From the NCBI RefSeq assembly GCF_012935715.1, contig NZ_CP052860.1, forward strand, positions 6,324,001 through 6,388,000: a stretch of 64,000 nucleotides of DNA. The letters run 5' to 3'. The translations under genes were made by a program, and so were the position numbers. Below, piece after piece: positions 27,501-44,436 of this stretch. How positions within the stretch are numbered: the first letter of the stretch is position 1; every line of letters starts with the position of its first letter. The stretch is from Pseudomonas sp. ADAK13 (GTDB lineage Bacteria > Pseudomonadota > Gammaproteobacteria > Pseudomonadales > Pseudomonadaceae). The notes beneath the pieces are model-generated. The model did not search any database. It saw nothing but the letters and a program-made list of their open reading frames with translations, and was not told the DNA's origin.

Positions 27501-27605
27501 CGACACCGGCAGCAAGTTGAACGCCACGCCGCCCAGCAACATGATCGCCAGGCTCAGCAGCATGGTTGCTACCGGCCGGCGAATGAAAGGTCCGGACAGG
27601 TTCAT
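24498..27605 (-). CDS. muxC: RND efflux transporter MuxC (MdtC-like)
   Basis: An inner-membrane RND proton/drug antiporter of 1035 residues, the standard length. It starts at [16 protein letters not shown] (first membrane helix) and has the TM4 proton-relay region [19 protein letters not shown] with paired Asp. The periplasmic porter and docking loops and the second six-helix set ([15 protein letters not shown]) follow. It begins within an ATGA overlap with muxB and ends in one with opmB. Systems of this MdtBC type use two different RND subunits in one trimer; muxB is the partner. The pump removes antibiotics or plant and bile compounds; specificity cannot be read from sequence. Confidence 0.95.
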
Positions 27606-30600
27606 GACTCAACCGGCTCCAGGCGCACGGGTTCTTTGCGCCAGCGACGCCCCAGGCGGTCGAAATACAGGTAGATCACCGGTGTGGTGAACAGGGTCAG
27701 CACCTGGCTCACCAGCAACCCGCCGACCATCACCAGGCCCAGGGGCTGGCGCAACTCTGCACCGGAACCGGTGGCGAGCATCAACGGCACGGCACCGAAC
27801 AGCGCGGCCAGGGTGGTCATGAGGATCGGCCGGAAACGCAACAGCGCCGCTTGATAGATCGCGGTTTGCGGGTCCAGGCCCTGGTTGCGCTCGGCGTCGA
27901 GGGCGAAGTCGATCATCATGATCGCGTTCTTCTTCACGATGCCGATCAGCAGGATGATGCCGATAATCGCGATCATCCCCAGGTCGTTGCCACTGAGCAG
28001 CAAGGCCAGCAAGGCCCCTACCGCTGCCGACGGCAAGGTCGAGAGAATGGTGATCGGGTGGATGTAGCTCTCGTAGAGCACCCCCAGCACGATGTACATG
28101 GTCACCACCGCCGCCAGGATCAGCAGCAAGGTGCTCGACAGCGACGCCTCGAACGCCTGGGCCGCGCCCTGGAACTGGGTCTGCACGCCCACCGGCATGC
28201 CGATGTCTTTCTGGGCCTGGTTGATCAGCTCCACACCCTTGCCCAGCGCCACGCCGGGGGCCAGGTTGAACGACATCATCACGGCCGGGAACTGGCCGAT
28301 ATGCGCGATCGCCAACTGTGCCTGGCGCTGTTCCACATGGGCCAGGCTCGACAGCCTTACCTGGCCGCCGTCGGTGGTTTTCACGTGGATCTGGTTCAGG
28401 GCGGCCGGGCCGAGGGTTTCGCCCGACTGGGCCTGCAACACCACGCGGTACTGGCTGGCCTGGGTATAGATGGTGGAAATCTGCCGCTGGCCGAAGGCGT
28501 CATACAGCGCATCGGTGATGGTCGATACCGTCACGCCAAGGCGCGAAGCGGCGTCGCGGTCGATCACCAGGTACACCTGCAGGCCTTTGTCCTGCAGGTC
28601 GCTGGCAACGTCGGAGAGTTCCGGCAACTGGCTGAGGGCGTGCACCAGCTTGTCGCTCCACAGGGCCAGCAACTCGGCGTCCGGCGAGGACATGCTGAAC
28701 TGGTATTGGGTACGACTCACGCGGTCTTCAATGGTCAGGTCCTGCACCGGCTGCATGAACAGGCGGATGCCCACCAGCTTGTCCAGTTGCGGCTGCAGGC
28801 GCGTGATGATCTGCGCCGCGCTCAGGTCCCGTTCGCCGTGGGGCTTGAGGTTGATCAGCAGGCGGCCACTGTTGAGGGTGGCGTTATCACCGTCCACCCC
28901 GATATAGGAGGACAGGCTCTCCACCGCCGGGTCTTCGAGGATGATCTTCGCCAACTCCTGCTGGCGTTGGCTCATGGCCGCGAAGGAGATCGACTGAGGC
29001 GCTTCGGAAATACCCTGGATCACACCGGTGTCCTGCACCGGGAAGAAACCCTTGGGCACCACCAGGTACAGCACCACGGTCAGGCCCAGGGTGGCGATGG
29101 CCACCAGCAAGGTCAGCGGCTGGTGCTTGAGCACCCACTGCAACTTACGCCCGTAGGCTTCGATCAGCCAGTCGATCCAGGCGCCGCTGGCCTTGTAGAA
29201 GCGGCCCTGTTCTTCTTCCTTGGGTTCACGCTTGAGCAACCGCGCGCACATCATCGGCGTCAGGGTCAGGGACACCACCAGGGAAATCAGGATCGCCACT
29301 GCCAGGGTGATGGCGAACTCACGGAACAAACGCCCGACCACATCAGCCATGAACAGCAGCGGGATCAATACGGCTATCAGCGACAGGGTCAGGGAAATCA
29401 GGGTGAAGCCGATCTGCTTGGCGCCCTTGAGCGCAGCCGCCATCGGCGTCTCGCCCTCCTCGATATAGCGGGAAATGTTCTCCAGCATCACGATGGCGTC
29501 GTCCACCACAAAGCCGGTGGCGATGGTCAGGGCCATCAGCGTCAGGTTATTGATGGAGAAGCCGGCCAGGTACATCACCCCAAAGGTGCCCACCAGGGAC
29601 AGTGGCACGGCGATGGACGGAATGAGGGTCGCGCTGAAGCGGCGCAGGAACAGGAACGTCACCATCACCACCAGGGCGATGGCGATCAGCAATTCGTGTT
29701 GCACGTCCTTGACCGAGGCACGGATGGTCTGGGTACGGTCAGTCAGCACCGTCACGTCCAGGCCCGCCGGCAGGTTGTCGGTGATGCTCGGCAACAGCGC
29801 CTTGATCCGGTCCACCACCTCGATGACGTTGGCCCCGGGCTGGCGCTGGATGTTCAGCAACACCGCCTGGTTTTCGTTGGCCCAGGCCGCAAGGCGTTCG
29901 TTTTCGGCACCGTCGACAATCTGCGCCACATCCTTGAGCCGCAACGGCGCACCGTTGTTGTAGGCCAGGATCAGCTCGGCGTATTCCTTGGGCGAGACCA
30001 ACTGGTCGTTGGCGTCGAGCATCGACACCCGCGTGGGGCCGTCGAAGTTACCCTTGGGCTGGTTGACGTTGGAGGCGGCGATCAGGGTGCGCACGTCCGA
30101 CAGGTTCAAGCCGTTGGCCGCGAGGGCCTCGGGGTTGACCTTGATCCGCACGGCCTGGCGCTGGCCGCCGGCAATGCTGACCATGCCGACGCCGCTGATC
30201 TGCGCGATCTTTTGCGCCATGCGTGTGTCGACCAGGTCATTGAGCTTGGGCAACAGCATGGTCTTGGAGGTGATGGCCAGGGTCAGCACCGGGGTATCCG
30301 CCGGGTTGACCTTGTTGTACACCGGCGGTGCCGGCAGGTCCTTGGGCAGCAGGTTGGTGGCGGCGTTGATCGCGGCCTGTACCTGTTGCTCGGCGACGTC
30401 CATGTTGATGTCGAGGTTGAACCGCAGGGTCAGTACCGAGGCGCCGCCGGAACTGGTGGACGCCATCTGGGTCAGGCCGGGCATTTGCCCGAACTGACGC
30501 TCCAGGGGCGCCGTCACCGCGCTGGTCATCACGTCCGGGCTGGCGCCGGGGTACAGGGTCATCACCCGGATGGTCGGGTAGTCCACCTGGGGCAAGGCCG

Positions 30601-30703
30601 AGACCGGCAACAGGCGGTAGGCGATCACGCCGGCCAAAACAATGGCCAGCATGCTCAGGGTAGTGGCTACCGGGCGAAGGATGAACAGCCGCGAGAGGTT
30701 CAT
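27602..30703 (-). CDS. muxB: RND efflux transporter MuxB (MdtB-like)
   Basis: The second RND subunit, 1033 residues, clearly paralogous to MuxC. It has the same start [16 protein letters not shown], the TM4 motif [19 protein letters not shown] and the later [15 protein letters not shown]. It is coupled by ATGA to muxA before and muxC after, so membrane fusion protein and both pumps are made together. In E. coli MdtABC the B and C subunits form a heterotrimer with division of labour between proton transport and substrate binding. The same is expected here. Confidence 0.95.
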
Positions 30704-32007
30704 GCGCCGCCCTTTTGCGCCTTGCCGGCATCAGCCGGGCCTTGCTGCGTCTTGGCTGCCGGCTGGCCCTGGAGGTGTTCGGTCGGGGTGGTCGGCACTT
30801 CACTGCTGTCGTTGACCACTTCGATTTCACTGCCGTCCTTCAGCCGGTCGGTGCCTTCCAGCACCACGCGGTCGCCGGCGGCAAGGCCTTGCTTGATCAC
30901 GGTGTGGTCGCCGTCGGAATCACCGATCACCAGCGGACGTACCTTGACCTTCTTGTCGCCATCCAGCACGTAGACAAAGGTGCCGGTGTTGCCGAACTGA
31001 ATCGCCGCCGACGGCGCCAGCACCACGTTATGCAGGGTGTCGGCCAGCAGGTGCACGTTCACGAACTGGTTGGGGAACAGTGCCTGGTCCTTGTTATCGA
31101 ACCGTGCCTTGAATTTCAGGGTGCCGGTGGTGACGTCGATCTGGTTGTCCAGGCTCTGCAACACGCCACTGGCCTTGAGGGCCACATCGCCACGGTCCCA
31201 GGCTTCCACCGGCAGCTTGTTACCGGCGTGATAACGCGCCAGTACGGTTTCCAGGGTGTTTTCCGGCAACGTGAAGACCACGCTGATCGGCTGGGTCTGG
31301 GTGATCACTGCCAGGAAGGTGGTGTCGTTGGCCGCCACAAGGTTGCCCACGTCCACCTGACGCAGGCCGACACGCCCGGTGATCGGGGCGCGGATCTTGG
31401 TGAATTCGAGGTTGAGCTTGGCGTCATCCACCGCGCCCTGGTTGGTCTTGACCGTGCCCTGGTACTGCAGCACCAGCGCTTCGGCGGTGTCGAGGGTTTG
31501 TTTGGCGATACTGTCCTGGGCGTACAGGTCGCGATAACGCTGCACGTCGACCTGGGCGTTTTTCAGCTGCGCCTGGTTTTGCAGCAACGTGCCCTGGGCC
31601 TGGAGCAAGGCATTCTGGTAACTGCGCGGGTCGATTTCCGCCAGCAGGTCACCGGCCTTGACCATCTGCCCTTCTTCAAAGGCGATCTTGACCAGCTCTC
31701 CCCCTACCCGGCTGCGCACATTGATGGTGTTCAATGCGGTGACCGTGCCCAGTGCCTTGTAATACACCGGGAACTCACCCAGCACCGCAGGCGCCACGCG
31801 CACCGGCACCGGGCCGGTAGAACCACCAAAGCCCGGACGCATCATGCCCGACTTGCCGGCATGCCCGGCGGGCTTCTTCTCGGCGCTGTCTTTGTGGCTG
31901 CCAGGCCAGAATTTCCAGCACAGGCCGGCAATGACCAGCAGCACGAGGAGGCCGAACAGCCAGCGGCGGGAGTGACGAGGGGTGGATTGCATGGAGTGAT
32001 CAACCAT
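30700..32007 (-). CDS. muxA: Membrane fusion protein MuxA (MdtA-like)
   Basis: The periplasmic adaptor of the pump, 435 residues. It has an N-terminal membrane anchor ([19 protein letters not shown]), then barrel-sandwich, hairpin and beta-barrel domains ([56 protein letters not shown]). The C-terminal tail is rich in Gln, Pro and Lys. ATG 32007 is used; ATG 31992 is in frame and neither has a clear ribosome site. It is the first gene of the operon, so its promoter lies in the 150 or so bases up to the tpx terminator. No local repressor gene is seen. Confidence 0.93.
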
Positions 32008-32237: not shown

Positions 32238-32738
32238 TTACTTCAAAACAGCCAGGGCTGCTTCGTAGTTCGGCTCTTGGCCGATTTCGCTGACCAGCTC
32301 GCTGTGCAGCACGTTGTCATTTTCGTCCAGCACCACGACGGCACGGGCGGTCAGGCCGCGCAGCGGGCCTGCGGCGATCGCAACGCCGTAGTCAACGGCA
32401 AAGCCGGCGTCGCGGAAGTCCGACAGGTTCTTCACGTTTTCCAGGCCTTCGGCGCCGCAGAAGCGTGCCTGGGCAAATGGCAGGTCAGTGGAAATGCACA
32501 GCACCACGGTGTTGTCCACGCTGTTGGCCTGGGCATTGAACTTGCGAACCGAAGTCGCGCAAGTCGGGGTATCGATGCTTGGGAAGATGTTCAGCACTTT
32601 GCGCTTGCCGGCAAAGGTAGCCAGGGTCGCGTCCGACAGATCGCCAGCAGTCAGGGTAAAGGCTGGCGCTTTGGCGCCGACTTGTGGCAAGTCGCCGTCG
32701 ACCTGGATAGGGTTGCCTTTATGGGTAACTTGAGCCAT
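32238..32738 (-). CDS. tpx: Thiol peroxidase Tpx
   Basis: An atypical 2-Cys peroxiredoxin of 166 residues that reduces hydrogen peroxide and lipid hydroperoxides using thioredoxin. The peroxidatic Cys lies in [16 protein letters not shown] and the resolving Cys in [23 protein letters not shown] is the typical Tpx start; ATG 32738 has AAGGAT eight bases upstream, so a longer in-frame extension is discarded. It is transcribed in the same direction as the sulfur operon ending 108 bases upstream, but has its own terminator and probably its own promoter. In some species Tpx is cytoplasmic and in others periplasmic; no signal peptide is seen here. Confidence 0.96.
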
Positions 32739-32846: not shown

Positions 32847-35561
32847 TCAACGCCCCGCCGCCACGAACCCCCGTTGCAAATCCTCGATCAACGCCTCCAC
32901 ATCCTCCAGCCCCACATGCAGACGCACCACCGGGTTCAATCCACGGTCGGCGACGCTCTGGCGATCCTGGGTGTCGGCCAGGGTCACCAGGCTCTCAAAA
33001 CCGCCCCAGGACGCACCCAGGCCAAACAGCTGCAAGCCGTCGATAAACCGTTCGACGTAACCGGCATCCGCGCGGGTGAGTTCAAACGACAGCAAACCGT
33101 TACTGCCGCTGAAGTCGCGCTTCCACAGCACATGGCCAGGGTGCTCGGGCAAGGCCGGATGAAACACCCGCTTGACCTGCGGCTGCGCCTGCAACCATTG
33201 GGCAATCTTCAGCGCCTGGCGCTCGTGCACGTCCAGCCGGGAAGCCAGGGTGCGCGCGCCACGCAGGATCAGGTAGGCATCGTCGGCACTGACCGCATTG
33301 CCAAAGGTGTCGCTCATTTTCGCCAGGGCCGGCCATGCTGCTTCGCTGGTGCAGACACTGCCCATCATCACGTCACTGTGGCCGCCGAGGTATTTGGTCA
33401 GGGCCATGATCGAGATGTCGGCGCCCAACGCCAGCGGCCGGTACAAGTAGGCCGAGCCCCAAGTGTTGTCCACCGCCAGCAGAATCCCGCGCGGCTTGCA
33501 CAGTGCGGCTATCGCGGGCAGGTCACACAGTTCATACAGCAGCGAACCCGGCACTTCCGCATAGACCATTTTGGTGTTGGCCTGTAACTGCGCTTCCAGA
33601 CCGCTGCCGTCCGGGGTGAAGTAGCTGACTTCGATGCCGAATGGCTGCAGGAACTCGCGGGCCAGCTTGCGCACCGGGGAATACACCGCGTCGGTGATCA
33701 GTACATGATCGCCGGGTCGCAGGTAGGCCAGGAACGTCTGCGCCGCAGCGGCGAGGCCGGTGCCATACAGCCGCGTGCGATAGCCGCCTTCGAGTTCGGT
33801 GACCAAATCTTCCAGGGCGAACGCGGTGGGGTTGCCACGCGCGCCGTAACTCAGGACACGCTCGCTGTCGCGCCGGGAACGCGCGTCACGCATCTGGGCG
33901 AGGTTGTCGAACAGCACGGTGCTCAAACGGGTGATGGGGACGTTCACCGCCCGGCCGCCATTGCCGCCTTCGGTACGTGCCGCATGAATCAGCCGGGTGC
34001 GCACGCGCGATACGGGCGCCAATGGTTTGAGGCTGGCGATTTCCGCCTCGCTCATCTGCGCCAACAAGCCGATTTCCCAGGCCAGGTATTGGCGGGCGGC
34101 ATCCTTGTTGCCGCTATGGCGGTCGTGGGTGAAGAACAGGAAGTCGATGCACTGATTATCCGCTGGGGTCTGCGCATCCTCGATCACCGGCAAACCGGCT
34201 GCGACCCAGGCGGCATAGCCGCCGTCGAGCACGTGCACCTCTTCGCCCAACCCCAGCGCGGCAAACGCGGCCAGCGCCGGGTCATCCGCCAGCAGCACCA
34301 ACGGCCGCGCACCGGCGGCCAACAACGAGCGAATCGACCAGCGCGAACCGGCAATCCGGCCCTTGCGATGGATCATGCTCGGGCGCAGGTCCACCAGGTC
34401 CACGGCATCGTCTTTCAGGGCATCGGCCAGCGCCTGCACCGAGATCAATGGCAACGCCTTGAACGGCACAGCCTGCCTGACCGGTAACGCCAGGCCACTC
34501 TGGACACCGTCCTTGAGCACATACGCCTCATGCCCCAATTGCCGCAGCCAGCTGGCGACAATCGGCGCACGCACGCCGTCGCTGTCTACCAGCACCACCC
34601 GCGCCTGACGCACGCCGATGTACAGGTCGGTGGACTGAATCAGCTGCCCGCCTGGGGTATGTTGCGCCCCCGGCAAACTGCCGGCGGCAAACTCTTCGGC
34701 GGTGCGTACATCACACAGGAACAGGCTGCGGGAAAGATCTTGCGCCCACTGGCGAACCTGATCCGCCCCAACAGTGACCACCCCTGCCCGCGCAGCCAAT
34801 TGCCGGGCAGCCTCGCGCTGCTGCACCAGATCAGTGGAGACCTGATCGGCATACCGCCGGGTGCTGCCATGCTCCAGCTTGAAGTCCGCCAGGTACCACC
34901 CCTGAGTGCCGTTTTCCAGCGCATAGACCGGGTTCTTCACGCCGAGGTTGATCAGCGTCTGGGCGCCGATAATGCTGCGGGTACGACCGGCGCAGTTGAC
35001 CACGATCGGCGTGGTCTCATCCGGCACCAGGTCGTGCACGCGGTAGCCCAGTTCACCGTTGGGGCAGCAGATGGAACCGGGAATGGTCATCTTGCGGTAT
35101 TCATCGAACGGCCTGCCGTCCAGCACCACCAGCGGCTCGCCCTTGGCCTGCCAGTCCGCCAGTTGGTGCGCGGTGACGTGGGGCGTGTGGCTGGCCTCTT
35201 CCACCAATTCGCCAAAGGCTTTTGACGGCACATGCACCCCGGCAAACAGTTGCAGGCCCGCCGCCTGCCAACCGTCCGCGCCACCTTGCAGCACATGCAC
35301 ATGGCGGTAGCCCAGCGCCTGCAAGCGCAACGCCGTACGCGCAGCCACCTCGCCGCCGTCCTGGTCGTAAATCACCAGGCGCACCTGAGGATTCGGCGCC
35401 AGGCGCTGCACCTCCAGCTCCAGGCGGCTATAGGGCAGGTTCACCCCGTGGAACAGGTGGGCCTCGCCGTATTGGCCGTGCTCGCGTACGTCAAACAGGG
35501 CGATTTCCTGGCCGTCGAACAGCCATTGTTGCAATTGCCCGGGTGTGATGGTCTGGCTCAT
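32847..35561 (-). CDS. Four-rhodanese / cystathionine beta-lyase-type PLP fusion protein
   Basis: A 904-residue protein with four rhodanese-like domains (about 5-110, 130-230, 260-360, 375-465), a linker with HDRHSGNKDAARQYLAWE, and a C-terminal Cys/Met-metabolism PLP domain (about 520-904). Only the second rhodanese keeps the catalytic loop, CAGRTRS with Cys190; the others have Asp in that place (YDQDGG, VDSDGVR, ADDPAL). The PLP lysine is Lys723 in LTKYLGGHSD, as in cystathionine beta-lyase. A C-S lyase acting on cystine or a similar disulfide yields a persulfide, which the active rhodanese could accept; this coupling is inference. Start at MSQTITPGQ, 25 bases after the GST stop. It is the last gene of the ten-gene operon. 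Confidence 0.88.
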   Translation of the reverse strand: MSQTITPGQLQQWLFDGQEIALFDVREHGQYGEAHLFHGVNLPYSRLELEVQRLAPNPQVRLVIYDQDGGEVAARTALRLQALGYRHVHVLQGGADGWQAAGLQLFAGVHVPSKAFGELVEEASHTPHVTAHQLADWQAKGEPLVVLDGRPFDEYRKMTIPGSICCPNGELGYRVHDLVPDETTPIVVNCAGRTRSIIGAQTLINLGVKNPVYALENGTQGWYLADFKLEHGSTRRYADQVSTDLVQQREAARQLAARAGVVTVGADQVRQWAQDLSRSLFLCDVRTAEEFAAGSLPGAQHTPGGQLIQSTDLYIGVRQARVVLVDSDGVRAPIVASWLRQLGHEAYVLKDGVQSGLALPVRQAVPFKALPLISVQALADALKDDAVDLVDLRPSMIHRKGRIAGSRWSIRSLLAAGARPLVLLADDPALAAFAALGLGEEVHVLDGGYAAWVAAGLPVIEDAQTPADNQCIDFLFFTHDRHSGNKDAARQYLAWEIGLLAQMSEAEIASLKPLAPVSRVRTRLIHAARTEGGNGGRAVNVPITRLSTVLFDNLAQMRDARSRRDSERVLSYGARGNPTAFALEDLVTELEGGYRTRLYGTGLAAAAQTFLAYLRPGDHVLITDAVYSPVRKLAREFLQPFGIEVSYFTPDGSGLEAQLQANTKMVYAEVPGSLLYELCDLPAIAALCKPRGILLAVDNTWGSAYLYRPLALGADISIMALTKYLGGHSDVMMGSVCTSEAAWPALAKMSDTFGNAVSADDAYLILRGARTLASRLDVHERQALKIAQWLQAQPQVKRVFHPALPEHPGHVLWKRDFSGSNGLLSFELTRADAGYVERFIDGLQLFGLGASWGGFESLVTLADTQDRQSVADRGLNPVVRLHVGLEDVEALIEDLQRGFVAAGR

Positions 35562-35586
35562 GAAAGTCCCGCAAAAAAGAGATGAA

Positions 35587-36234
35587 TTACTGCAAGGCCA
35601 ACGAGCGCTCGCCAGCGGCCACTTCACGCCCCTTGGCATAGGCCCGCTGGACCGCCGGGCGTGCCTTGATCCGCAAGCGCCAGGCCTGGATGTTCGGGTA
35701 GTCCGCCAGGTCCTGGCCTTGGCGCAGGGGCTGGATCCACGGGAAGATCGCCATGTCGGCCACCGAATACTCGCCCGCCACGTACGGCACCTCGGCCAAG
35801 CGTTGCTCCAGCATCCGATACAGGCGCGTGGCTTCGGCGTTCAGCAGGTCCAGGGCGAAGGGAATCGGTTCCGGCGCCTTCTCCTTGAACAGCTGCAACT
35901 GGCTCAGGTACGGGGTGATATGCCCCACCTGCCAGAACAGCCACTCCTGGACTTTCTGGCGCTCGGCGGTACCGGCGGGCGGCAGGAAACGCCCGGCCTG
36001 GTCGGCCAGGTAATTCAGGATCGCCCCGGACTCGAACAGGCTCAGTGGTGCTTCAAGGCTGTGGTCGACAATCGCCGGAATCCGCCCATTCGCGCTGATG
36101 CGCCGGAAGCTTTCCTGCTTCTGCGCGCCTTCACGGATGTTCACCGGAATCAGGCGGTACTCTGCTTCCAGCTCTTCAAGCAGGATGCCGACTTTCAGGC
36201 CATTGCCGGTGGGCCAGTAATACAGGTCGATCAT
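35587..36234 (-). CDS. Glutathione S-transferase, Nu-class-like
   Basis: A GST-fold protein of 215 residues. The N-terminal thioredoxin-like domain begins IDLYYWPTGNGLKVGILLEE. The Thr and Asn in PTGNG resemble the TxN motif of Nu-class enzymes (YfcG, YghU), which bind two glutathiones and act as disulfide reductases. NGRIPAIVDHS contains the cis-Pro, and the C-terminal helical domain is complete. ATG 36234 overlaps the stop of the cupin dioxygenase gene. In this operon a glutathione-dependent disulfide or persulfide reduction step is plausible, passing sulfur between the lyase/rhodanese and the dioxygenase. That is inference. Confidence 0.9.
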   Translation of the reverse strand: MIDLYYWPTGNGLKVGILLEELEAEYRLIPVNIREGAQKQESFRRISANGRIPAIVDHSLEAPLSLFESGAILNYLADQAGRFLPPAGTAERQKVQEWLFWQVGHITPYLSQLQLFKEKAPEPIPFALDLLNAEATRLYRMLEQRLAEVPYVAGEYSVADMAIFPWIQPLRQGQDLADYPNIQAWRLRIKARPAVQRAYAKGREVAAGERSLALQ

Positions 36235-36827
36235 GCGTAGGCCTTGATCGACGGGGCCATCTGCGAGGCGTTGTAGTTAAGAATCCGGCCGTCGGCTTCA
36301 ACGCCATAACGGCCATTGAGGGACTCCAGCGGCAAGCCATACAGGTGGAAGTGCAAGGTCGGCTGCTCACCCTCGACGAGAATCCCGTGCAGGTCTTCAC
36401 CGAGGAACGAGATGGAAGTACCCGGCTGCACGATGACTTCTTTCTCAAGGGTCAAGGTGGTGAAGCCTGCGTCACGTCCTTCATCGTTGCGGCCATAGAC
36501 GTAGTTGATCTCCTGGCCTTCAACGGCACTGATGATCGCCCAGGTTTCATGGTTGTGGGGGATGGTGCTTTTGCCCGGCAGCAGCGAGTTCAGGTACAGG
36601 GTCGGTGTGTCGCCATCGTCGTTCAGGCGATAACGGAAGGCAGTACTGCCCTGCCCCGGCACCGGTGCGGGGAATTCGCTGAAGTTGAACAGGTCCCGGC
36701 GCTCGGCCAGGGTTTCCAGCAGCCCGACGATTTCCACCAGGGCCGCGCGGTCTACGCCACGCTGGTTGATGACGCGGATCTGCTGCAGGAAGTCTTCGAT
36801 AACGGCGGCACGGTTTGCGGTACTCAT
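36231..36827 (-). CDS. Cysteine dioxygenase-family cupin
   Basis: A 198-residue cupin of the cysteine dioxygenase type. The iron-binding histidines are His91 and His93 in IPHNHETWAI and probably His147 in GEDLHGI. The enzyme family adds O2 to a thiol to give a sulfinate (cysteine to cysteine sulfinate, or 3-mercaptopropionate to its sulfinate). The protein has no cysteine at all, so the Cys-Tyr crosslink of mammalian CDO is absent, as usual in bacterial thiol dioxygenases. It lies 16 bases after the ABC ATPase gene and overlaps the GST gene by ATGA. The true thiol substrate is open. Confidence 0.87.
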   Translation of the reverse strand: MSTANRAAVIEDFLQQIRVINQRGVDRAALVEIVGLLETLAERRDLFNFSEFPAPVPGQGSTAFRYRLNDDGDTPTLYLNSLLPGKSTIPHNHETWAIISAVEGQEINYVYGRNDEGRDAGFTTLTLEKEVIVQPGTSISFLGEDLHGILVEGEQPTLHFHLYGLPLESLNGRYGVEADGRILNYNASQMAPSIKAYA

Positions 36828-36843
36828 GACGAGGTTCCTCTTA

Positions 36844-37668
36844 TTAGACAGACAGGGTGTAGCGGCTCAGGTTGGTCAACAGGTACGGATCGTTGGCGAT
36901 CGGCGGACGGCGGCCCGGATCGCCCAAGGCATGGCGCAGGAATTCCTGGGTGCGTTCACTGGTGGGGCGCTGGAAGATTTGCTCGGCGCTGCCGTGCTCG
37001 ACGATCACGCCGTTTTCAGTGAAGTAGACGATGTCGCTGATCTCTTCGGCGAAGCGCATCTCGTGGGTCACCAGCACACAGGTCATGCCCTCTTCGGTCA
37101 GCTCACGAATCACCGTCAGCACTTCGCCGACGGTTTCCGGGTCCAGGGCCGAGGTCACTTCATCGAACAGAATCAGTTCCGGGCGCATCGCCAACGCGCG
37201 GGCAATCGCCACCCGCTGCTGCTGCCCGCCGGAAAGTTGGCCGGGATAGGCATCGGCCTTGTGCTCCATGCGCACCTTGGCCAACAGCGCCCGCGCGTCT
37301 TTCTCGGCGTCGGCGCGGTTGCGGCCGAGCACCTTGCGCGGGGCGATCACCAGGTTTTCCAGCACCGACAAATGCGGGAACAGGTTGTACTGCTGGAACA
37401 CAAAACCGACGCGCTTGCGCAACTCGATGCGCTGGGCTTCCTGGGTCAGGGTATCGACCCGGGTTTCGCCGACGCGGATGGTGCCGCGCTGGGGCTGCAA
37501 CAGGCCGGTGATGCAACGCAGGATGGTCGACTTGCCCGAGCCCGACGGGCCGATGATCGACACCGCCTGGCCGCGATGCACATCAAGGTCGATGCCCTTG
37601 AGCACCCGGTTGTCACCGAACGACAGCTGCAAGTCCCGCAGGCTGACCAGGGGTTCAATAGAAGGCAT
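36844..37668 (-). CDS. Polar amino acid ABC transporter ATP-binding protein
   Basis: The ATPase of a GlnQ/HisP-type importer, 274 residues. It has Walker A GPSGSGKST, Q-loop FVFQQYNLFPH, signature LSGGQQQR, Walker B LILFDEVTSALDPE and H-loop VTHEM. A 25-residue C-terminal tail after the usual end is longer than in GlnQ. It starts within a 14-base overlap with the upstream permease gene. Together with two permeases and two binding proteins it forms one uptake system, here presumably for a sulfur amino acid or derivative given the downstream thiol enzymes. Confidence 0.95.
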   Translation of the reverse strand: MPSIEPLVSLRDLQLSFGDNRVLKGIDLDVHRGQAVSIIGPSGSGKSTILRCITGLLQPQRGTIRVGETRVDTLTQEAQRIELRKRVGFVFQQYNLFPHLSVLENLVIAPRKVLGRNRADAEKDARALLAKVRMEHKADAYPGQLSGGQQQRVAIARALAMRPELILFDEVTSALDPETVGEVLTVIRELTEEGMTCVLVTHEMRFAEEISDIVYFTENGVIVEHGSAEQIFQRPTSERTQEFLRHALGDPGRRPPIANDPYLLTNLSRYTLSV

Positions 37669-38347
37669 AACGGCGCTCCAGGCGTTGGGTCAAACGGGAA
37701 ATCGGGTAGCAATAGGCGAAGAACAACACCAGCAAGCTGAGGTAGATCACCACGGTAAAGCCGGTCATGTTCACGGTGTTGCTGGCGATCTGCGCGGTGT
37801 CGATCACGTCGTGCACGCCCACCAGCGAAGCCAGGGCGGTGCCCATGGTGACCACCGCGTAGAGGTTCATCCACGGCGGCAACATGCGCTTGAAGCACTG
37901 GGGCAGGATGATCGAGCGGAAGATCTGGCCACGGGTGAACGCCAGTGAACGCGCGGCTTCCCACTGGGTACTGGGGATCGAGCCGATGGCACCGCGAAAG
38001 ATCTCCGCCACGTTGGCGCTGGCCGGCAACGCGAGGCCAATGGTCACCTTGACCCAGTCGGGGAACGACACATAGCTGCTGCCGATATGGATCTCGAACG
38101 GGAACACGTAGGTGGTGAAATAGATCAGCACCAGCCACGGCGCGTTGCGGAAAAACTGCACCCAGACCCGCGCCGGCAACCGCAGCAGGCGCAAGGGCGA
38201 CATGGCCAGCGCGCCCACCATCAGGCCCAGCAGCGAGCCGAGTCCGATCGCCACCAGGCTGATCAGGATGTTCTGGCCGAAACCGCTGACCAGTGCCGGC
38301 GACCATTGCAGCAACGCCGACAGCACCGGGAATGAATCAATGGCCAT
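37655..38347 (-). CDS. Amino acid ABC transporter permease
   Basis: A HisM/GlnP-family permease of 230 residues with about five membrane segments and the EAA loop region (EAARSLAFTRGQIFRSIILPQ) that docks the ATPase. It overlaps the other permease gene by 11 bases and the ATPase gene by 14, indicating tight co-translation. It forms a heterodimeric channel with the product of 38337-39071. Membrane topology and motif are clear; the substrate is not. Confidence 0.93.
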   Translation of the reverse strand: MAIDSFPVLSALLQWSPALVSGFGQNILISLVAIGLGSLLGLMVGALAMSPLRLLRLPARVWVQFFRNAPWLVLIYFTTYVFPFEIHIGSSYVSFPDWVKVTIGLALPASANVAEIFRGAIGSIPSTQWEAARSLAFTRGQIFRSIILPQCFKRMLPPWMNLYAVVTMGTALASLVGVHDVIDTAQIASNTVNMTGFTVVIYLSLLVLFFAYCYPISRLTQRLERRYAFY

Positions 38348-39071
38348 AGCCGGGCATCCTCAGGCGCGCTTCCAGCCAGCGCCCCACACAATTGACGGTA
38401 AAGCTCAGCAAGCCGAAAAAGCTCAGGATCAAAATCATCAGTTCCAGCACGTTGTCGCTCTGGGTCCAGATCATGATCGAGGCGTAAGTGATATCGCCCA
38501 CGGCAATGGCCGAGGCCACGGCGGTCATTTTCACCAGGTCGATCAGGTTGTTGATCAGCGACGGCAACGCAAAGCGCAAGGCCAACGGCAACTGCACGTT
38601 CCACAGCAGCTGGCGGCTGCTGAAGGCCAGGGAACTGGCGGCTTCCAGCGTCACCGCGGGCACCGCCTCGATGCCGGCGCGCAGGGCTTCGGCGTGAAAC
38701 GCGCCTTTATGCAGGGAGATCACGATCACCACCCAGGCAAACGGCGTCAGCGGGTTGGCTGCGCCGACCGCCTGGGTCAGCAGCATGTTCAACACCAGGA
38801 ACGCGCAGTACAGCTGCACCAGGGTCGGGGTGTTGCGGGTGACTTCGATAAACACCCGCGCCGGCTTGGCCAGCCATGGGTTGCCCGAGGTCAGCAGCGC
38901 CGCCAGGCTGATCCCGGCCAGCAGGCTGCCGACGATGGTGAACAGGCACAACAACACGGTGGTCAACGCGCCCTGCGCCAGGGTGCCACGCTGATAGGCA
39001 TCCAGCAGGAAGTTGTAGTTGAGGCCGATGCCGGCGGCCCAGTGCACAAACATCTCCAGCCAATGACTCAT
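38337..39071 (-). CDS. Amino acid ABC transporter permease
   Basis: The partner permease of 244 residues. The N-terminus (GIGLNYNFLLDAYQRG) precedes the first helix (TTVLLCLFTIVGSLLAG). The EAA loop is EAASSLAFSSRQLLWNVQLP. The start overlaps the aminotransferase stop by four bases. It belongs to the polar amino acid uptake (PAAT) family. Together with the second permease, the ATPase and one or both binding proteins it imports the pathway substrate. Confidence 0.93.
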   Translation of the reverse strand: MSHWLEMFVHWAAGIGLNYNFLLDAYQRGTLAQGALTTVLLCLFTIVGSLLAGISLAALLTSGNPWLAKPARVFIEVTRNTPTLVQLYCAFLVLNMLLTQAVGAANPLTPFAWVVIVISLHKGAFHAEALRAGIEAVPAVTLEAASSLAFSSRQLLWNVQLPLALRFALPSLINNLIDLVKMTAVASAIAVGDITYASIMIWTQSDNVLELMILILSFFGLLSFTVNCVGRWLEARLRMPGYGH

Positions 39072-40279
39072 TCGACGCCCCGCAACTTGCCGCAGGCGAC
39101 CGCGATACGGCGGCCGGCCTCGGCCACGCTGTCAGTCGCCGTGGCGATGGACAGGCGAAACCACGGCGACAGGCCATAAGCACTGCCCGCCACACCGGCG
39201 ACGCCCTCCTCCAACAAGTACGCGACGACATCGCCGTCATCCTTCAACGGCTGACCGTCCGGGCGGTAGCGGCCGAGCAGACCGGCGCAGCGCACAAACA
39301 CGAAGAACCCGCCTTGAGGCTCAAGCACCTCCAGGCCGTCGACGGTGCCGAGGGCCATCATCAGCAGGTCCCGACGCAGTTGATAGGCCGCCACCTGCTC
39401 GACCAAGAAGCCCAGCCCGCCGGTGAAGGCGGCCAACGCGGCGGCCTGCCCGACGGAAGACGCACCGGAGGTGGATTGGGATTGCACCACCGCCATGGCG
39501 TTGGTCAGGGTCTGCGGCCCGGCGCCGAAGCCGATGCGCCAGCCTGTCATGGCGTAGGTCTTGGACACGCCGCCCACCAACAGGCAGCGGTCCTGCAAAT
39601 CCGGCGCGACGTTCAGCAGGCTCTGGGCCGGGCGACCGTCGAAGCGGATGTGTTCGTAGAGTTCATCCAGCAGCACCAGCACCTGGGGATGGCGACGCAA
39701 CACCTCGGCCAGCGCTTGCAGTTCAGCTTCGCTGTAGACAGCACCGCTTGGGTTGCCCGGGCCGTTCAGGATCAGCCAGCGGGTGCGCTCGTTGATGTGC
39801 TGCTCGAGTTGCGCCGGCAGCAACTTGCAGCCCTGCTCCAGCCCGCACTCGATAAACACCGGTTCGCCACCGTTGAAGCGCACGCTGTCGGGGAACGACG
39901 GCCAATACGGCGTGGGTACCAGCACTTGATCGCCGTCGTCGAGGGTGGCGGCGAAGGCGTTGAAGATGATCTGTTTCGCGCCGTTGGCGATCACGATGCT
40001 GGGCAGCGAATAGTCGAGGTGGTTTTCTTCGGCCAGCTTGCGCTGCACCGCCACGCGCAAGGCTTTTACCCCGGGTGTCGGCGTGTATTTGGTGGCGCCC
40101 GCGGCGATGGCGGCGTAGGCAGCTTGCTTGATGTGCTCCGGGGTATCGAAATCCGGCTCGCCGGTGGTCAGGTCAAGAATGTCGCGGCCGGCGTCACGCA
40201 GTTCCGTGGCGCGGGACTTGGCTGCCGCGTTGGCCGACAGCGACACCCGCTGCACGCGCCTGGACAGGCGAACGGTCAT
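39068..40279 (-). CDS. Class I/II PLP aminotransferase
   Basis: A 403-residue aspartate-aminotransferase-like enzyme of fold type I. It has TTGEPDFDTPEHI near the N-terminus, NGPGNPSGAVY for the PLP ring, Asp in LVLLDELYEH, the Schiff-base lysine in GGVSKTYAMTGWRIG, and the substrate-carboxylate Arg in FRLSIATA. It is coupled by four-base overlaps to the FAD-linked dehydrogenase before it and the permease after it. A 2-hydroxyacid dehydrogenase followed by an aminotransferase could convert a sulfur-containing 2-hydroxy acid into the amino acid used by the C-S lyase, or run the reverse keto-acid exchange. Specificity is inferred only from context. Confidence 0.93.
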   Translation of the reverse strand: MTVRLSRRVQRVSLSANAAAKSRATELRDAGRDILDLTTGEPDFDTPEHIKQAAYAAIAAGATKYTPTPGVKALRVAVQRKLAEENHLDYSLPSIVIANGAKQIIFNAFAATLDDGDQVLVPTPYWPSFPDSVRFNGGEPVFIECGLEQGCKLLPAQLEQHINERTRWLILNGPGNPSGAVYSEAELQALAEVLRRHPQVLVLLDELYEHIRFDGRPAQSLLNVAPDLQDRCLLVGGVSKTYAMTGWRIGFGAGPQTLTNAMAVVQSQSTSGASSVGQAAALAAFTGGLGFLVEQVAAYQLRRDLLMMALGTVDGLEVLEPQGGFFVFVRCAGLLGRYRPDGQPLKDDGDVVAYLLEEGVAGVAGSAYGLSPWFRLSIATATDSVAEAGRRIAVACGKLRGVE

Positions 40280-41697
40280 GGCTGCACCTCCAGGACTTTG
40301 CCCGGGTTGAGCAGGTTTTTCGGGTCGAGGGCGCGTTTGATGCGGCGCATCAGGTCCAGCTCCACCGGGCTTTTGTAGCGGCCCAGCATGCCGACCTTGC
40401 GCTGGCCAATCCCGTGCTCGGCGCTGATAGAGCCGCCGTGGGCGTGGGCGCTGTCGTGCACCAGCAGGCTCAGTTCGGCGTAGTTGCGCATGTGCTCATC
40501 CACCGTCGAGTCCAGCGGATGGGCAACGTTGTAATGCAGGTTGCCGTCCCCCAGGTGCCCGAAGGTGAAGTTGCGCACCCCGGGAAAATGCGCCTGCAAC
40601 AGCGCATCGGTATGGGCGACGAAGGCGACGATTTGCGAGATGGGCACCGAGATGTCGTGCTTCATATTGCGCCCGGCGCGCTTCTGCGCCTCGCTCATGT
40701 TTTCGCGCAGCAGCCACAGGGCTTCGCTTTGCGCCAGGCTTTCGGCGATCAGTGCATCGGCCAGTAATGACTGTTCGAAGGCTTCACCGAGGACGGTTTC
40801 GAAGGCTTCACGGGCGTGGGCTTCGCCGTGGTTATCCGACAGCTCCAACAAGGCGAACCAGGGCTGGCTGGCTTTCAGGAACGGTTGCGGGCCTTCGGGA
40901 AACTGTTCGCGCAGCAGCGCCAGGCAATCGGCGCTGAGCAGTTCGAACGCAGTGAGATTCGCACCGAAACCGGCGCGGGCATGGGACAGGAATGCAACCG
41001 CCTGGGCCAGCTCATCAAAGGCCAGCAGCGCAGTAGCCTGGGCCTTGGGCAACGGGAACAGCTTCAGTGTCGCGGCAGTGATAATCCCGAGGGTGCCTTC
41101 GCTGCCGACGTACAAATCCCGCAGGTCATAGCCGGTGTTGTCCTTGCGCAAACCGCGCAGGCCGTTCCAGATTTCGCCTTCGGCGGTCACCACTTCCAGG
41201 CCCAGGGTCAGCTCGCGGGTATTGCCATAACGCAGCACGGCAGTACCGCCGGCATTGGTGCCGAGGTTGCCCCCAAGGGTGCAGCTGCCTTCGGCGCCCA
41301 AGCTCAGCGGAAACAGTCGGCCGGCTTCACGGGCCACATCCTGGACGTTTTGCAGGATGCAGCCGGCTTCGACGGTCAGGGTGTCGTTATCGGTGTCGAT
41401 CACGCGGACCCGGTTCATGCGGTCGAGCAACAGCAATACCGCGCGGCCACTGGCGTCCGGTGTGGCGCCTGCCATCAGGCCGGTGTTGCCGCCCTGGACG
41501 ACAATGGGCGCCTCCAGGGCCACACACGCACGCACCACGGCGGCGACTTCTTCGGTATTGGCCGGGTGCACCACCGCGACTACCTGACCGGTGTAGCGGC
41601 CCTGTTTGTCGGTGAGGTACTGGGCAGCCTCGTCACTGCGCTGCACGTGGGCGGTGCCGAGCAGTTGTTGCAGGGTGGCAAATAGCGGTTCACTCAT
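40276..41697 (-). CDS. FAD-linked D-2-hydroxyacid dehydrogenase (GlcD/D2HGDH type)
   Basis: A VAO-family flavoprotein of 473 residues. The FAD-binding part has VVQGGNTGLMAGATPD and LGGNLGTNAGGTAVLRYGN. The C-terminal catalytic part has GHLGDGNLHYNVAHP, which in D-lactate and D-2-hydroxyglutarate dehydrogenases binds metal and substrate, and GSISAEHGIGQRK. Oxidation of a D-2-hydroxy acid to the 2-keto acid is the family reaction, with electrons passed to a flavoprotein or quinone. The start at MSEPLFATLQ overlaps the second binding-protein gene by eight bases; ATG 41712 is an in-frame alternative. The substrate in this sulfur-linked operon is unknown. Confidence 0.9.
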   Translation of the reverse strand: MSEPLFATLQQLLGTAHVQRSDEAAQYLTDKQGRYTGQVVAVVHPANTEEVAAVVRACVALEAPIVVQGGNTGLMAGATPDASGRAVLLLLDRMNRVRVIDTDNDTLTVEAGCILQNVQDVAREAGRLFPLSLGAEGSCTLGGNLGTNAGGTAVLRYGNTRELTLGLEVVTAEGEIWNGLRGLRKDNTGYDLRDLYVGSEGTLGIITAATLKLFPLPKAQATALLAFDELAQAVAFLSHARAGFGANLTAFELLSADCLALLREQFPEGPQPFLKASQPWFALLELSDNHGEAHAREAFETVLGEAFEQSLLADALIAESLAQSEALWLLRENMSEAQKRAGRNMKHDISVPISQIVAFVAHTDALLQAHFPGVRNFTFGHLGDGNLHYNVAHPLDSTVDEHMRNYAELSLLVHDSAHAHGGSISAEHGIGQRKVGMLGRYKSPVELDLMRRIKRALDPKNLLNPGKVLEVQP

Positions 41698-42496
41698 GGC
41701 TGTACTGCTCATGCAAATCACGCAGGGCTTGGGACGGCGCCATGCCGGTGCGTTCGCCGAGCGCAATCAACCAGCCGCTGCGGTGCCAGTCGCGCACGAT
41801 GGCGTCGAGCCTGGCCTGGGTATCGTGTTCGCCCTTGCGGATCCAGATCACCGATTTGGAAGGGATCAGATCTCCCGGCAACGGGATCTCATAGCCGGAC
41901 CATTCGGCATCGTCCAGCAACGCGTGCATGGTCGGGCTGACGTGCACCGCCGCCACGCAGCCATTGCCACGCAACGACAACAGGGATTCAGACTGGCTGC
42001 GGAACGCCTTGATCTGCGCGCCGTAGGTTTCCTGCAACGGCTTGATGAAGTTGCTGCCCTGGGACACGCACACCGGCTTGTCCTTGAGGTCGGCCCACTG
42101 GGTGATGCCGGCGCCTTTGCGGATCAACGCCGCGCCGCCGACTTCTTCATAGGGCGTGGGCACGTAGTCGAGAATCTCGGCGCGCTCGTCGGTGTACTGC
42201 ATGTTGGCAATCAGCACATCGACCTTGCCTTGCTGCAGGAACTGCACGCGGTTGGGGGCCAGTACCGAAACGGTCTTGGTCTCCACACCCAGCGCCTGTC
42301 CGAGGCCCTTGGCCAACTCCACGTTGTAGCCCAGGTGTTCGCCGGTCTTGGGGTCGATGGTGCCAAACGGCGGGCCGCTGAGAATCACGCCGACGCTGAT
42401 GGTGTGGCGTTGCTGGATCTTGTCGAGGGTGGCGTCGGCGTGGGCCAGGCTTGCGCACAGGGCCAGGCCGAGAACGGTCAGGGATTTCAATCGCAT
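41690..42496 (-). CDS. Periplasmic amino acid-binding protein (second of a tandem pair)
   Basis: A 268-residue family 3 solute-binding protein with a signal peptide (LKSLTVLGLALCASLAHA) followed by DATLDKIQQRHTISVGV. Two lobes are visible, with FLQQGKVDVLIANMQYTDER and Cys residues in KPVCVSQGSNF and GNGCVAAVH that could pair in the periplasm. It starts two bases after the stop of its paralogue (TGAGCATG). The two proteins share long stretches (DATLDKIQQRH, NRVQFLQQGKVD), so they arose by duplication and may bind different ligands for the same permease. Confidence 0.93.
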   Translation of the reverse strand: MRLKSLTVLGLALCASLAHADATLDKIQQRHTISVGVILSGPPFGTIDPKTGEHLGYNVELAKGLGQALGVETKTVSVLAPNRVQFLQQGKVDVLIANMQYTDERAEILDYVPTPYEEVGGAALIRKGAGITQWADLKDKPVCVSQGSNFIKPLQETYGAQIKAFRSQSESLLSLRGNGCVAAVHVSPTMHALLDDAEWSGYEIPLPGDLIPSKSVIWIRKGEHDTQARLDAIVRDWHRSGWLIALGERTGMAPSQALRDLHEQYSHE

Positions 42497-42498
42497 GC

Positions 42499-43335
42499 TC
42501 AGGCGCCCTTGAACTGTTTCTGCAACTCCACCAGCGCCGGGGAAGCCGGGGTGATGTGGTTGCGGGTCTGGGCGTCGATCAGCCAGCCGCTGCGGTGCAG
42601 TTCCTTGACGATCGGGTCGAGTCTGGCCTGGGTGTCGCTCTCGCCACGGCGAGTCCAGATCACCGACGGTGCGGGATTCAACTCGGGGCTGAGGGTGCGG
42701 TAATCCTTCCATTCCGCGCTGTCGTTGATCAGCGGGTTGACCAGCGTGGAGTCATGCACGGCGGCGACGCAGTTGTTGCCACGCAGGGCCAACAGGGATT
42801 CGGAGGAGCTTTTGAAGGCCTTGATCTGCGCGCCGAGCTCGGTGAGCGGCTTCACGTAGCTGCTGCCCTGAGAGGTGCACACCGGCTGGTCCTTGAGGTC
42901 TGCCCAGCGGGTGATCTTGCTGTCCTTGAGCACCGCTGCGGTGCCGCCGATCTTGTAGAACGGGGTCGGCACGAAACCGAGGATGTCGCCACGCTCGGCG
43001 GTCCACTCCATATTCGCGATCAGCAGGTCGACCTTGCCCTGTTGCAGGAACTGCACGCGGTTGGCCGGCAATACCGGCACCAGTTGCACTTCGGCGCCCA
43101 ACTGACGGCCCAGCTCGTTGGCCAGGTCGACGTTCAAGCCCTTGGGCTTCTGGGTAGTAGGGTCGATACCGCCAAACGGCCCGCCGGAGAGCAGCACGCC
43201 GACCACCAGCACATGGCGCTGCTGGATCTTGTCCAGGGTCGCATCGGCCTGAGCCACCACGCTGCCGCCCAGGGCAATCAATGCGCCCAGGACCACAGGC
43301 AACCTTCGTTTTACCGCCGCGCGCACAAAACCCAT
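42499..43335 (-). CDS. Periplasmic amino acid-binding protein (first of a tandem pair)
   Basis: A 278-residue family 3 solute-binding protein and the first gene of the ten-gene operon. A signal peptide (LPVVLGALIALGGSVVAQA) precedes DATLDKIQQRHVLVVGV. The ligand-lobe stretch FLQQGKVDLLIANMEWTAER and the cysteines in QPVCTSQGSSY and GNNCVAAVHD match the second copy. AGGGGAG lies five bases before the ATG. The 234 to 240 bases upstream, shared with the divergent LysR gene, contain AT-rich DNA and inverted repeats and should hold the operon promoter and operator. Confidence 0.93.
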   Translation of the reverse strand: MGFVRAAVKRRLPVVLGALIALGGSVVAQADATLDKIQQRHVLVVGVLLSGGPFGGIDPTTQKPKGLNVDLANELGRQLGAEVQLVPVLPANRVQFLQQGKVDLLIANMEWTAERGDILGFVPTPFYKIGGTAAVLKDSKITRWADLKDQPVCTSQGSSYVKPLTELGAQIKAFKSSSESLLALRGNNCVAAVHDSTLVNPLINDSAEWKDYRTLSPELNPAPSVIWTRRGESDTQARLDPIVKELHRSGWLIDAQTRNHITPASPALVELQKQFKGA

Positions 43336-43443
43336 GGAACTCCCCTCATTAGCGATCGGCGTACCCCGACCTGATGTGGGGGCATGCTAGGGAGAGTGCC
43401 GGGGTAACGGAAATTCAAATATCTAATATCGTTATAACTTCCC

Positions 43444-43475: not shown

Positions 43476-43575
43476 TCGAAATCATTAGCTCTCGTAAAAA
43501 TTCGACGCGACAAAACATAAACATCTGTAATGTTTATCTTCGCACCCTTGATATAAAAAACGCCCTGGAATGGCC

Positions 43576-44436
43576 ATGTCGACCCTCGATCTCGAACTGC
43601 TCCGCACCTTTATTGCCGTGGTCGACCACCACAGCTTTGCCGAAGCCGGCACCCATCTGGCACGCACGCAATCCTCCGTCACCCAGCATATGCAGCGCCT
43701 CGAACAGCAAGTGGGGGTCAGCCTGTTTGAGAAACGCGGCCGGCAAAAACAGCTGACGGAACCCGGCTTGCAGTTATTGCGGCATGCGCGGCAGATGCTG
43801 TCGCTGAATGACGAGGCGCTTAATTCCCTGCGGGAAAGCAGCCTCAGCGGCGTGCTGCGCATCGGCTCGCCCCATGACATCGCCGACACCATCCTGCCGC
43901 CGATCCTCAGCCACATCGCCCGTTCGGCGCCGCGCCTGCGCCTGGAAATCGACGTGGGCCGCAGCCCGTTCCTGATGGATGACTTGCACCGGGGCAAGGT
44001 CGACATGGTGATTTCCACCCGCGCCGACGCCAACCTGGAAGGCTTTGCGTTGCGCACTTCGCCGGTGTGGTGGATCTGTTCGGCGCAATACATTCATTCG
44101 CCGAGCGAACCGCTGCCGCTGATTCTGGTGGATGAGCCGAGTATCTATCGACGTTATGCCCTGGAGGCGCTGGAACGGGCGAATATCCCGTGGCGCCAGG
44201 CGTATCTGGCGTCGAACCTGATCGGGATCAAGGCCGCCACCCGCGCAGGGCTGGGCGTGACCCCACGGAGTATGGAAATGCTCGGGCCGGACATGCGGGT
44301 ATTGGGGGAAAACGATGGGCTGCCGAGGATGCCAGAGGTGACGTATTACCTGTGGATCCGCCCGAACACGGCGAACCCGATTGCGCGCAAGGCGTATGAC
44401 TTGATCAGGGCCAGCCAGGGGCTGGCACTGGGGTGA
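43576..44436 (+). CDS. LysR-type regulator divergent from the sulfur operon
   Basis: A 286-residue LysR regulator. The N-terminal helix-turn-helix reads LDLELLRTFIAVVDHHSFAE, then THLARTQSSVTQHMQRLEQQ. A linker helix and the two-lobed effector domain follow (LRIGSPHDIADTILPP, VDMVISTRADANLEGFAL). ATG 43576 has GGA six bases upstream; ATG 43570 is two codons earlier and possible. Being divergent from a transport-plus-catabolism operon is the standard arrangement for control of that operon with the substrate or an intermediate as inducer. Its stop is only three bases from that of the convergent dnaQ. Confidence 0.93.
   Translation: MSTLDLELLRTFIAVVDHHSFAEAGTHLARTQSSVTQHMQRLEQQVGVSLFEKRGRQKQLTEPGLQLLRHARQMLSLNDEALNSLRESSLSGVLRIGSPHDIADTILPPILSHIARSAPRLRLEIDVGRSPFLMDDLHRGKVDMVISTRADANLEGFALRTSPVWWICSAQYIHSPSEPLPLILVDEPSIYRRYALEALERANIPWRQAYLASNLIGIKAATRAGLGVTPRSMEMLGPDMRVLGENDGLPRMPEVTYYLWIRPNTANPIARKAYDLIRASQGLALG

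Follow-up and report, generated by a model that had tools for sequence, protein, structure and literature searches.

Gene organization of the operon

In this study, a 64-kb window of the genome of Pseudomonas sp. ADAK13 was analyzed (positions 6,324,001-6,388,000 of a single-contig 7.3-Mb genome; the window means this whole stretch, and the coordinates below are counted from its first base). Ten minus-strand genes are packed at 32847-43335 of the window, and a LysR-type regulator gene is divergent from them. We propose, with a probability of roughly one half (0.5), that they form a two-entrance operon in which an acidic cysteine S-conjugate would be cleaved by a C-S lyase and the released thiol dioxygenated, with sulfite as product, and in which a hydroxy acid would feed the same route. 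The families of the encoded proteins were assigned from NCBIfam, Pfam and solved structures. The features are as follows, with the ten genes in the order of transcription:

43570..44436, plus strand: LysR-type regulator, divergent from the operon, LrhA-like, under the family cut-off
43410..43438, minus strand: conserved 29-nt block upstream of SBP1, candidate regulator or promoter site
42499..43335, minus strand: SBP1, family-3 solute-binding protein (PF00497; best solved relatives 1xt8 and 2yjp)
41690..42496, minus strand: SBP2, second family-3 binding protein, part of the cassette described below (PF00497; best solved relatives 1xt8 and 2yjp)
40276..41697, minus strand: FADox, FAD-dependent D-2-hydroxyacid dehydrogenase of the GlcD/D-2HG dehydrogenase superfamily, cassette (PF01565 and PF02913)
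39068..40279, minus strand: AT, class I/II aminotransferase, aspartate-aminotransferase-like, cassette (PF00155; 6f35 AatB, E 3e-120)
38337..39071, minus strand: perm1, ABC permease 1, polar amino acid type (PF00528; TIGR01726 above cut-off)
37655..38347, minus strand: perm2, ABC permease 2, polar amino acid type (PF00528; TIGR01726 above cut-off)
36844..37668, minus strand: ABC ATPase, polar amino acid type (PF00005; best model TcyN, under cut-off)
36231..36827, minus strand: thiol-dioxygenase cupin, sister clade of mercaptosuccinate dioxygenase (Msdo)
35587..36234, minus strand: glutathione transferase (GST), YfcG-like (best solved relatives YfcG 3gx0/5hfk)
32847..35561, minus strand: fusion of four rhodanese domains and a C-S lyase of the cystathionine-beta-lyase type that depends on pyridoxal phosphate (PLP) (1yt8, 1cl1, TIGR01324)

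Every gene has an ATG start and a stop codon. Neighbouring genes overlap by 4 bases (FADox-AT, AT-perm1 and cupin-GST), 8 bases (SBP2-FADox), 11 bases (perm1-perm2) or 14 bases (perm2-ATPase), or are separated by gaps of 2 bases (SBP1-SBP2), 16 bases (ATPase-cupin) and 25 bases (GST-fusion). Judged from this spacing, the ten genes are probably co-transcribed. The chosen starts differ from those of the longest open frame in three genes, SBP2 (42496), FADox (41697) and the fusion (35561), and the homology searches used FADox as 40276-41694, with an N-terminus one residue shorter than in the final call. This arrangement agrees with an earlier sequence-only reading of the locus, which had described ten minus-strand genes with overlaps or gaps of at most 25 bases and a divergent LysR gene.

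The gene families given in that reading also stood overall, apart from the cupin, which appears to be nearer to Msdo than to cysteine dioxygenase. The solved relatives of FADox include 3pm9 (E 9.4e-127) and human D-2HGDH (6lpn, E 3.4e-81). Several proteins score under the cut-offs of their nearest models: AT reached 529 bits against PRK06107 (cut-off 617), and the ATPase 304.5 bits against NF008428/PRK11264, the TcyN model (cut-off 406). The GST, which had been called Nu-like, resembles YfcG, but its 195 bits lie under the 332 bits required by the YfcG family model NF010579.

Conservation of the operon and comparison with the msdo locus

From one cupin scan of genome contigs, 79 related loci were collected with their flanks, and the window proteins were matched to them at an identity of at least 44%. 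The core genes recur almost throughout: the cupin in 79 of the 79 loci, the ATPase in 78, perm2 and the C-S lyase in 77 each, the rhodanese and perm1 in 76 each, SBP1 in 75 and LysR in 73. The remaining genes were AT (60 loci), SBP2 (59), FADox (57) and GST (38). The operon is thereby confirmed as a genuine conserved unit and not a chance arrangement; most of the set recurs elsewhere, and the concern of the sequence-only reading that it might be conserved in no other genome is settled. By cupin identity (98%), the closest named loci are those of Pseudomonas sp. IPO3778 and Pseudomonas yamanorum. Within the genus, a cupin of at least 67% identity occurs in 37 of 199 genomes; 10 more hold only remote matches (at most 34%) and 152 hold none. 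Any cupin match was present in 12 of 369 genomes of the class, the window genome included, and some match to the cupin alignment in 164 of 250 genomes of the Corticimicrobacter family. Some of the many cupin matches beyond the 79 loci were opened with their flanks.

The earlier view that no named pathway has this set needs correction, as a published relative exists in the msdo locus of Advenella mimigardefordensis DPN7 (MIM_c37410-37480) and Variovorax paradoxus B4, which is involved in mercaptosuccinate catabolism (PMC5373536; here and below, the statements cover the part of the paper that was available). Both the msdo locus and the present operon contain a LysR gene, a thiol-dioxygenase cupin, a cystathionine-beta-lyase-like gene and a rhodanese gene, joined in Advenella by a polar-amino-acid ABC transporter (PMC5373536). 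This set of cupin, rhodanese, C-S lyase and LysR is complete in the window, and each member was found in 73-79 of the 79 loci. Unlike the msdo locus, the present operon has a cupin of a sister clade (41% identity), a fused rhodanese and lyase, and the additional genes SBP2, FADox, AT and GST. In Advenella, Msdo was 10.9-fold more abundant on mercaptosuccinate than on succinate; the neighbouring amino-acid-binding protein rose 22.7- and 5.6-fold (two spots) and the transporter ATPase 7.0- and 6.8-fold (PMC5373536). Mutants lacking lysR or msdo no longer grew on mercaptosuccinate, and deletion of the transporter genes MIM_c37450-37480 (so given in the text and strain table, and labelled 37430-37480 in the legend of Fig 5) left growth unaffected on every tested carbon source; the available part of the paper assigns no role to the lyase next to msdo (PMC5373536). 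In the open-licence literature, covered mostly as titles and starts of abstracts, no description was found of the present gene set, nor of the fusion, the cassette, the paired receptors or an explanation for the lyase and transporter of msdo loci. Moreover, no open-licence paper was found that holds both '2-succino' and 'mercaptosuccin'.

The thiol dioxygenase and the rhodanese/lyase fusion

The sole PDB sequence match of the cupin at E 0.001 was Msdo (8vni), and a comparison of predicted folds also ranked Msdo first. The 3-mercaptopropionate dioxygenase 4tlf shares the thiol-dioxygenase cupin fold and is only 18% identical to the cupin in the fold alignment. The residues R65, H91, H93, H147, H159, H161 and Y163 were kept in 93 of 93 rows of the cupin clade and in 8 of 8 rows of the Msdo clade, and we take them to be the iron-binding His triad and the Arg/His/Tyr site by cysteine dioxygenase numbering. 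Because the cupin is kin to Msdo, the compound that it oxidizes is likely to be a mercapto-carboxylic acid rather than a thiol derived from cystine or mercaptolactate. The outline of the sequence-only reading, in which a sulfur amino acid or the corresponding D-hydroxy acid is taken up and degraded by a dedicated route that ends in sulfinate and sulfur transfer, is favoured, and its hydroxy half gains from the missing Asp of SBP2 described below; the cystine- or mercaptolactate-derived thiol that it had suggested is disfavoured by the kinship of the cupin.

Two simpler identities of the cupin were considered. Cysteine dioxygenase became less probable, since Msdo was the only PDB sequence match at the threshold used. 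Msdo outright was rejected, as relatives of Msdo (80-88% identity to 8vni) coexist with cupins of the present clade in three genomes, one of Variovorax and two of Delftia (G568, G569, G570). As a separate observation, Delftia, Variovorax and their relatives hold a further clade of thiol-dioxygenase cupins apparently in one frame with a four-rhodanese protein (L142, L144, L145, L146 and several others, with open frames of about 745-830 aa).

The fusion has 904 residues. Its rhodanese part matches 1yt8 (E 4.5e-109), the four-domain rhodanese PA2603 of P. aeruginosa, which has 539 residues and, unlike the fusion, no lyase part. The genes of 1yt8 and 4tlf are, we assume, PA2603 and PA2602, and adjacent. 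The four-rhodanese/C-S lyase fusion noted earlier is present, with the qualification that the catalytic Cys loop (CAGRTR) occurs only in rhodanese domain 2, in every one of 84 rows; the corresponding loops of domains 1, 3 and 4 lack Cys, both in the window and in the commonest motifs among the rows. The C-terminal half resembles E. coli MetC (1cl1, E 1.4e-87 to 8.9e-87), exceeds the curated TIGR01324 cut-off (412-415 bits versus 365.9) and keeps the TKY motif of MetC, the Lys of which presumably binds PLP. It is unlike MetC in its fusion partner, in its operon context and in the loop aligned with MetC, where Ala, not Tyr, precedes Ser-Trp; this Ala is present in 78 of the 80 rows listed. The two halves share one open frame in 68 of the 79 loci and are separated by a stop in three (L055, L064 and L065); even within Pseudomonas, then, not every locus has the fusion. 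The comparison was inapplicable to the other eight, in which the locus ends (L039), the lyase is missing (L046) or, in six Burkholderiales, the order differs or no adjacent pair exists.

The tie between lyase and dioxygenase extends to Msdo-like cupins. Among 16 opened loci with a cupin of at least 61% identity to 8vni, a lyase was present in 12 (52-61% identity to the window lyase). In three of them, L209-L211, the order cupin-lyase-rhodanese-ABC transporter reproduces the gene set published for Advenella, and in L150-L152 a gene judged by reading only to encode a TctC-like receptor lies between rhodanese and lyase. Published mercaptosuccinate catabolism needs no lyase, yet a lyase is frequent at such loci, which suggests that mercaptosuccinate or a like compound is normally made by beta-elimination.

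Two receptors and a removable cassette

SBP1 and SBP2 were compared at an Arg and an Asp column, which we equate with those of E. coli GlnBP; rows with a stop inside, less than 40% identity or less than 85% coverage were left out. The Arg was retained in all rows of both proteins. The Asp column, at which an Asp would be expected to grip the alpha-amino group, holds Asp in 79 of 79 SBP1 rows, aligned with the Asp of 1xt8 and 2yjp; in the 63 SBP2 rows it holds Val (60 rows, the window among them) or Ile (3 rows). Family-3 binding proteins grip the amino acid via an Arg and an Asp, and in GlnBP Arg75 contacts the alpha group of the ligand and Asp157 lies in the small lobe (PMC7400645, in the part available). 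With its Arg kept, an aliphatic residue at the ammonium site and FADox and AT as neighbours, SBP2 is best read as a putative receptor for a hydroxy or oxo acid. As a base rate, the genome has 49 family-3 matches; 30 other loci were taken, 28 aligned, and 21 of these have the Asp. Elsewhere (L218, 11193-12913), two SBP1-like receptors occur, one with Ala for Asp (CVAAVHASS), in a stretch with no FADox or AT match; this may be an independent change of ligand.

SBP2, FADox and AT come and go together. All three were present in 56 of the 79 loci, none in 18 and some in 5. Of the five partial loci, L064 is truncated where its contig ends, and three (L072, L073 and L079) belong to Corticimicrobacter and Variovorax. 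The fifth, the Vreelandella locus L068, retains FADox, AT, cupin, GST and fusion beside a different transporter. One of the 18 cassette-free loci (L045, which looks decayed) has pieces of GST. A quick tree was built from four core proteins, with 83 of 86 rows kept and loci without all four core genes dropped; on it, SBP2 changed state 16 times and FADox and AT 15 times each. Among 10 independent supported pairs differing in FADox, SBP2 followed in 9.2 and AT in 8.5 on average, never in the opposite direction (median p 0.004 each).

Upstream region

Of the intergenic regions between LysR and SBP1, 75 were kept, those with either gene missing, a wrong orientation or a length of at least 420 bases being dropped. 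The 29-nt block was found with at most 5 mismatches in 74 of the 75, and one shuffle per region always gave at least 11; its 22-nt core has a single occurrence in the genome at up to 3 mismatches. The block is probably a good candidate for the LysR site or the promoter of the operon. Related species have this region in common by descent, and its conservation is thus not in itself evidence of function. Only 3 of the 75 regions contain the strict form of a LysR-type dyad close to the start of lysR, and a sigma-70 promoter scan gave 1 match, below the shuffle mean of 2.3.

Proposed pathway and alternatives

We infer which compound is the substrate, in what order the steps run and what the rhodanese and GST do; the gene set, its conservation, the behaviour of the cassette, the motifs, the kinship of the cupin and the absence of the Asp from SBP2 were observed directly. 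For relatives, the reaction of Msdo and the requirement for LysR in growth on mercaptosuccinate have been published. The substrate would be of the class R-S-CH2-CH(NH2)-COOH, where R is a carboxy-alkyl group. At the first entrance, the amino acid would be imported by SBP1 and the ABC transporter; at the second, its 2-hydroxy analogue would be imported by SBP2 and the same transporter. FADox would then convert the D-2-hydroxy form to the 2-oxo acid, and AT the 2-oxo acid to the amino acid. The lyase half of the fusion may cleave the amino acid to pyruvate, ammonia and the mercapto-acid R-SH, which the cupin would oxidize with O2 to a sulfinate; the sulfinate of mercaptosuccinate falls apart to succinate and sulfite. 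The rhodanese domain bearing the Cys may act on sulfane sulfur and might attach it to sulfite; disulfides of R-SH may be reduced by the GST, and LysR would switch the operon on.

S-(2-succino)cysteine in particular is our leading candidate, though a tentative one that falls well short of an even chance. By its chemistry it fits, as beta-elimination would give mercaptosuccinate, pyruvate and ammonia. If the transporter serves such an upstream S-conjugate amino acid, its dispensability on mercaptosuccinate is expected, and the proposal would account at once for the unexplained lyase and for the induced yet dispensable transporter of the msdo locus. In the described yxe (scm) pathway of Bacillus and its 2SL variant, S-(2-succino)cysteine is N-acetylated, the succinyl-S bond is broken by YxeK or 2SL, and cysteine is recovered (PMC9706529 and PMC12757645, in the parts available). 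The present operon would share with them the candidate substrate and the breaking of a C-S bond; unlike them, it would cut the bond on the cysteine side and oxidize the thiol. The N-acetyltransferase, YxeK/2SL and deacetylase families of those pathways were absent from the Pfam and NCBIfam matches of the ten operon proteins (Pfam only for SBP2), a search limited to these proteins and not the rest of the genome. As a tentative suggestion, cysteine-side cleavage to mercaptosuccinate followed by dioxygenation to succinate and sulfite would make a third, hitherto undescribed route for this substrate.

Several observations weigh against the proposed pathway. The cupin is 41% identical to 8vni over 172 aligned residues, and rows of the Msdo clade reach 57-88%; in a quick tree it falls in its own clade, outside the Msdo clade and sister to it. 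At one position, which is Cys in 8 of 8 rows of the Msdo clade, it has Ile, Val or Thr; at another, which is Leu or Met in those rows, it has Arg67. With the cupin outside the Msdo clade and its residues different, the substrate may differ as well. Of the Msdo-like loci without a lyase, L202 and L205 have only the rhodanese and L206 and L207 neither; counting L154 (cupin 57% identical to 8vni, same clade), which has a rhodanese and no lyase, would make the tally 12 of 17. DTDP versus succinate likewise raised the Advenella binding protein, 3.1- and 8.6-fold, so that its induction is not specific to mercaptosuccinate (PMC5373536). For SBP2, absence of the Asp is by itself no proof of a hydroxy-acid ligand: the column holds Gly, Asn, Ser or Ala in 7 of the 28 other proteins of the family that were aligned, though in none is it Val or Ile. 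Because the cassette genes are neighbours and the tree was built on genes of the operon itself, part of their common loss is accounted for by single deletions, which alone leave the survival of the flanking SBP1 and perm1 unexplained. GST followed FADox in 3.7 pairs on average (median p 0.125), and its link to the cassette is not significant. Finally, in L072, L073 and L079, SBP2 occurs without a linked FADox, and these genomes hold unlinked relatives at 55-60%.

The strongest rival is a cysteine route with transamination of cysteine sulfinate, which we consider unlikely. In it, the lyase would release cysteine or its persulfide from lanthionine, cystine or a mixed disulfide, the cupin would be a cysteine dioxygenase, AT would make sulfinylpyruvate, which loses sulfite, and the rhodanese would use the persulfide. 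The best solved relatives of both receptors, 1xt8 and 2yjp, are in its favour, being presumably cysteine-binding proteins; the ATPase is nearest to a cystine transporter model, albeit under its cut-off, and aspartate aminotransferases accept cysteine sulfinate. However, the cupin appears to be nearer to Msdo than to cysteine dioxygenase, and the hydroxyacid dehydrogenase is left without a role. Moreover, AT travels with SBP2 and FADox and is absent from otherwise complete core loci, which is odd for an enzyme that acts after the cupin, although the cell's other aminotransferases might fill in.

An equally doubtful alternative keeps the logic of the proposed pathway and changes the conjugate: S-carboxymethyl-, S-(2-carboxyethyl)- or S-(2-carboxypropyl)-cysteine would yield mercaptoacetate, 3-mercaptopropionate or its methyl relative. 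The separate clade of the cupin beside Msdo, with its clade-specific residues, would suit such a substrate; S-carboxyalkyl-cysteines occur in plants, and several carriers of the operon are, we assume, plant-associated species. That the lyase is simply the cystathionine beta-lyase of methionine synthesis, with the other genes serving general sulfur scavenging, is very improbable: it is the only protein of the genome above the TIGR01324 cut-off (415 bits; next 256), but it shares one chain with rhodaneses, goes with a thiol dioxygenase and an importer, has Ala in place of the Tyr before Ser-Trp, and belongs to a set whose cupin (at least 67%) occurs in only 37 of 199 genus genomes, a patchy spread for a housekeeping function.

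Neighbouring genes

A thiol peroxidase-like gene (32238-32738) was rejected as an eleventh member of the operon, as it lies 108 bases downstream, has its own start and is in the flanks of only 4 of the 79 loci (L001-L004). Here it follows the operon directly, but in the relative L001 it is about 4.7 kb away, which points to a gain or loss between the two. Beside it, at 24498-32007, are three genes that, judged from size and reading alone, resemble an RND efflux set of two pumps and a membrane-fusion protein. Further off, GlgE-, GlgB- and amylase-type alpha-glucan genes stand in a row at 5534-13321 (minus strand), and 13737-15203 encodes a serralysin-type metalloprotease C-terminal domain (PF08548).

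Biological significance

If the proposal is true, Msdo, so far studied with polythioester feedstock, would gain a natural purpose, and the substrate, S-(2-succino)cysteine, the product of fumarate damage to cysteine, would be one of broad biological relevance. Paired receptors for an amino acid and a hydroxy acid on one transporter would feed one pathway via a dehydrogenase-aminotransferase cassette. The absence of a single Asp from the additional receptor, whose gene stands next to those of a hydroxyacid dehydrogenase and a transaminase, would then be a small and testable example of how a transporter comes to accept a wider range of compounds.

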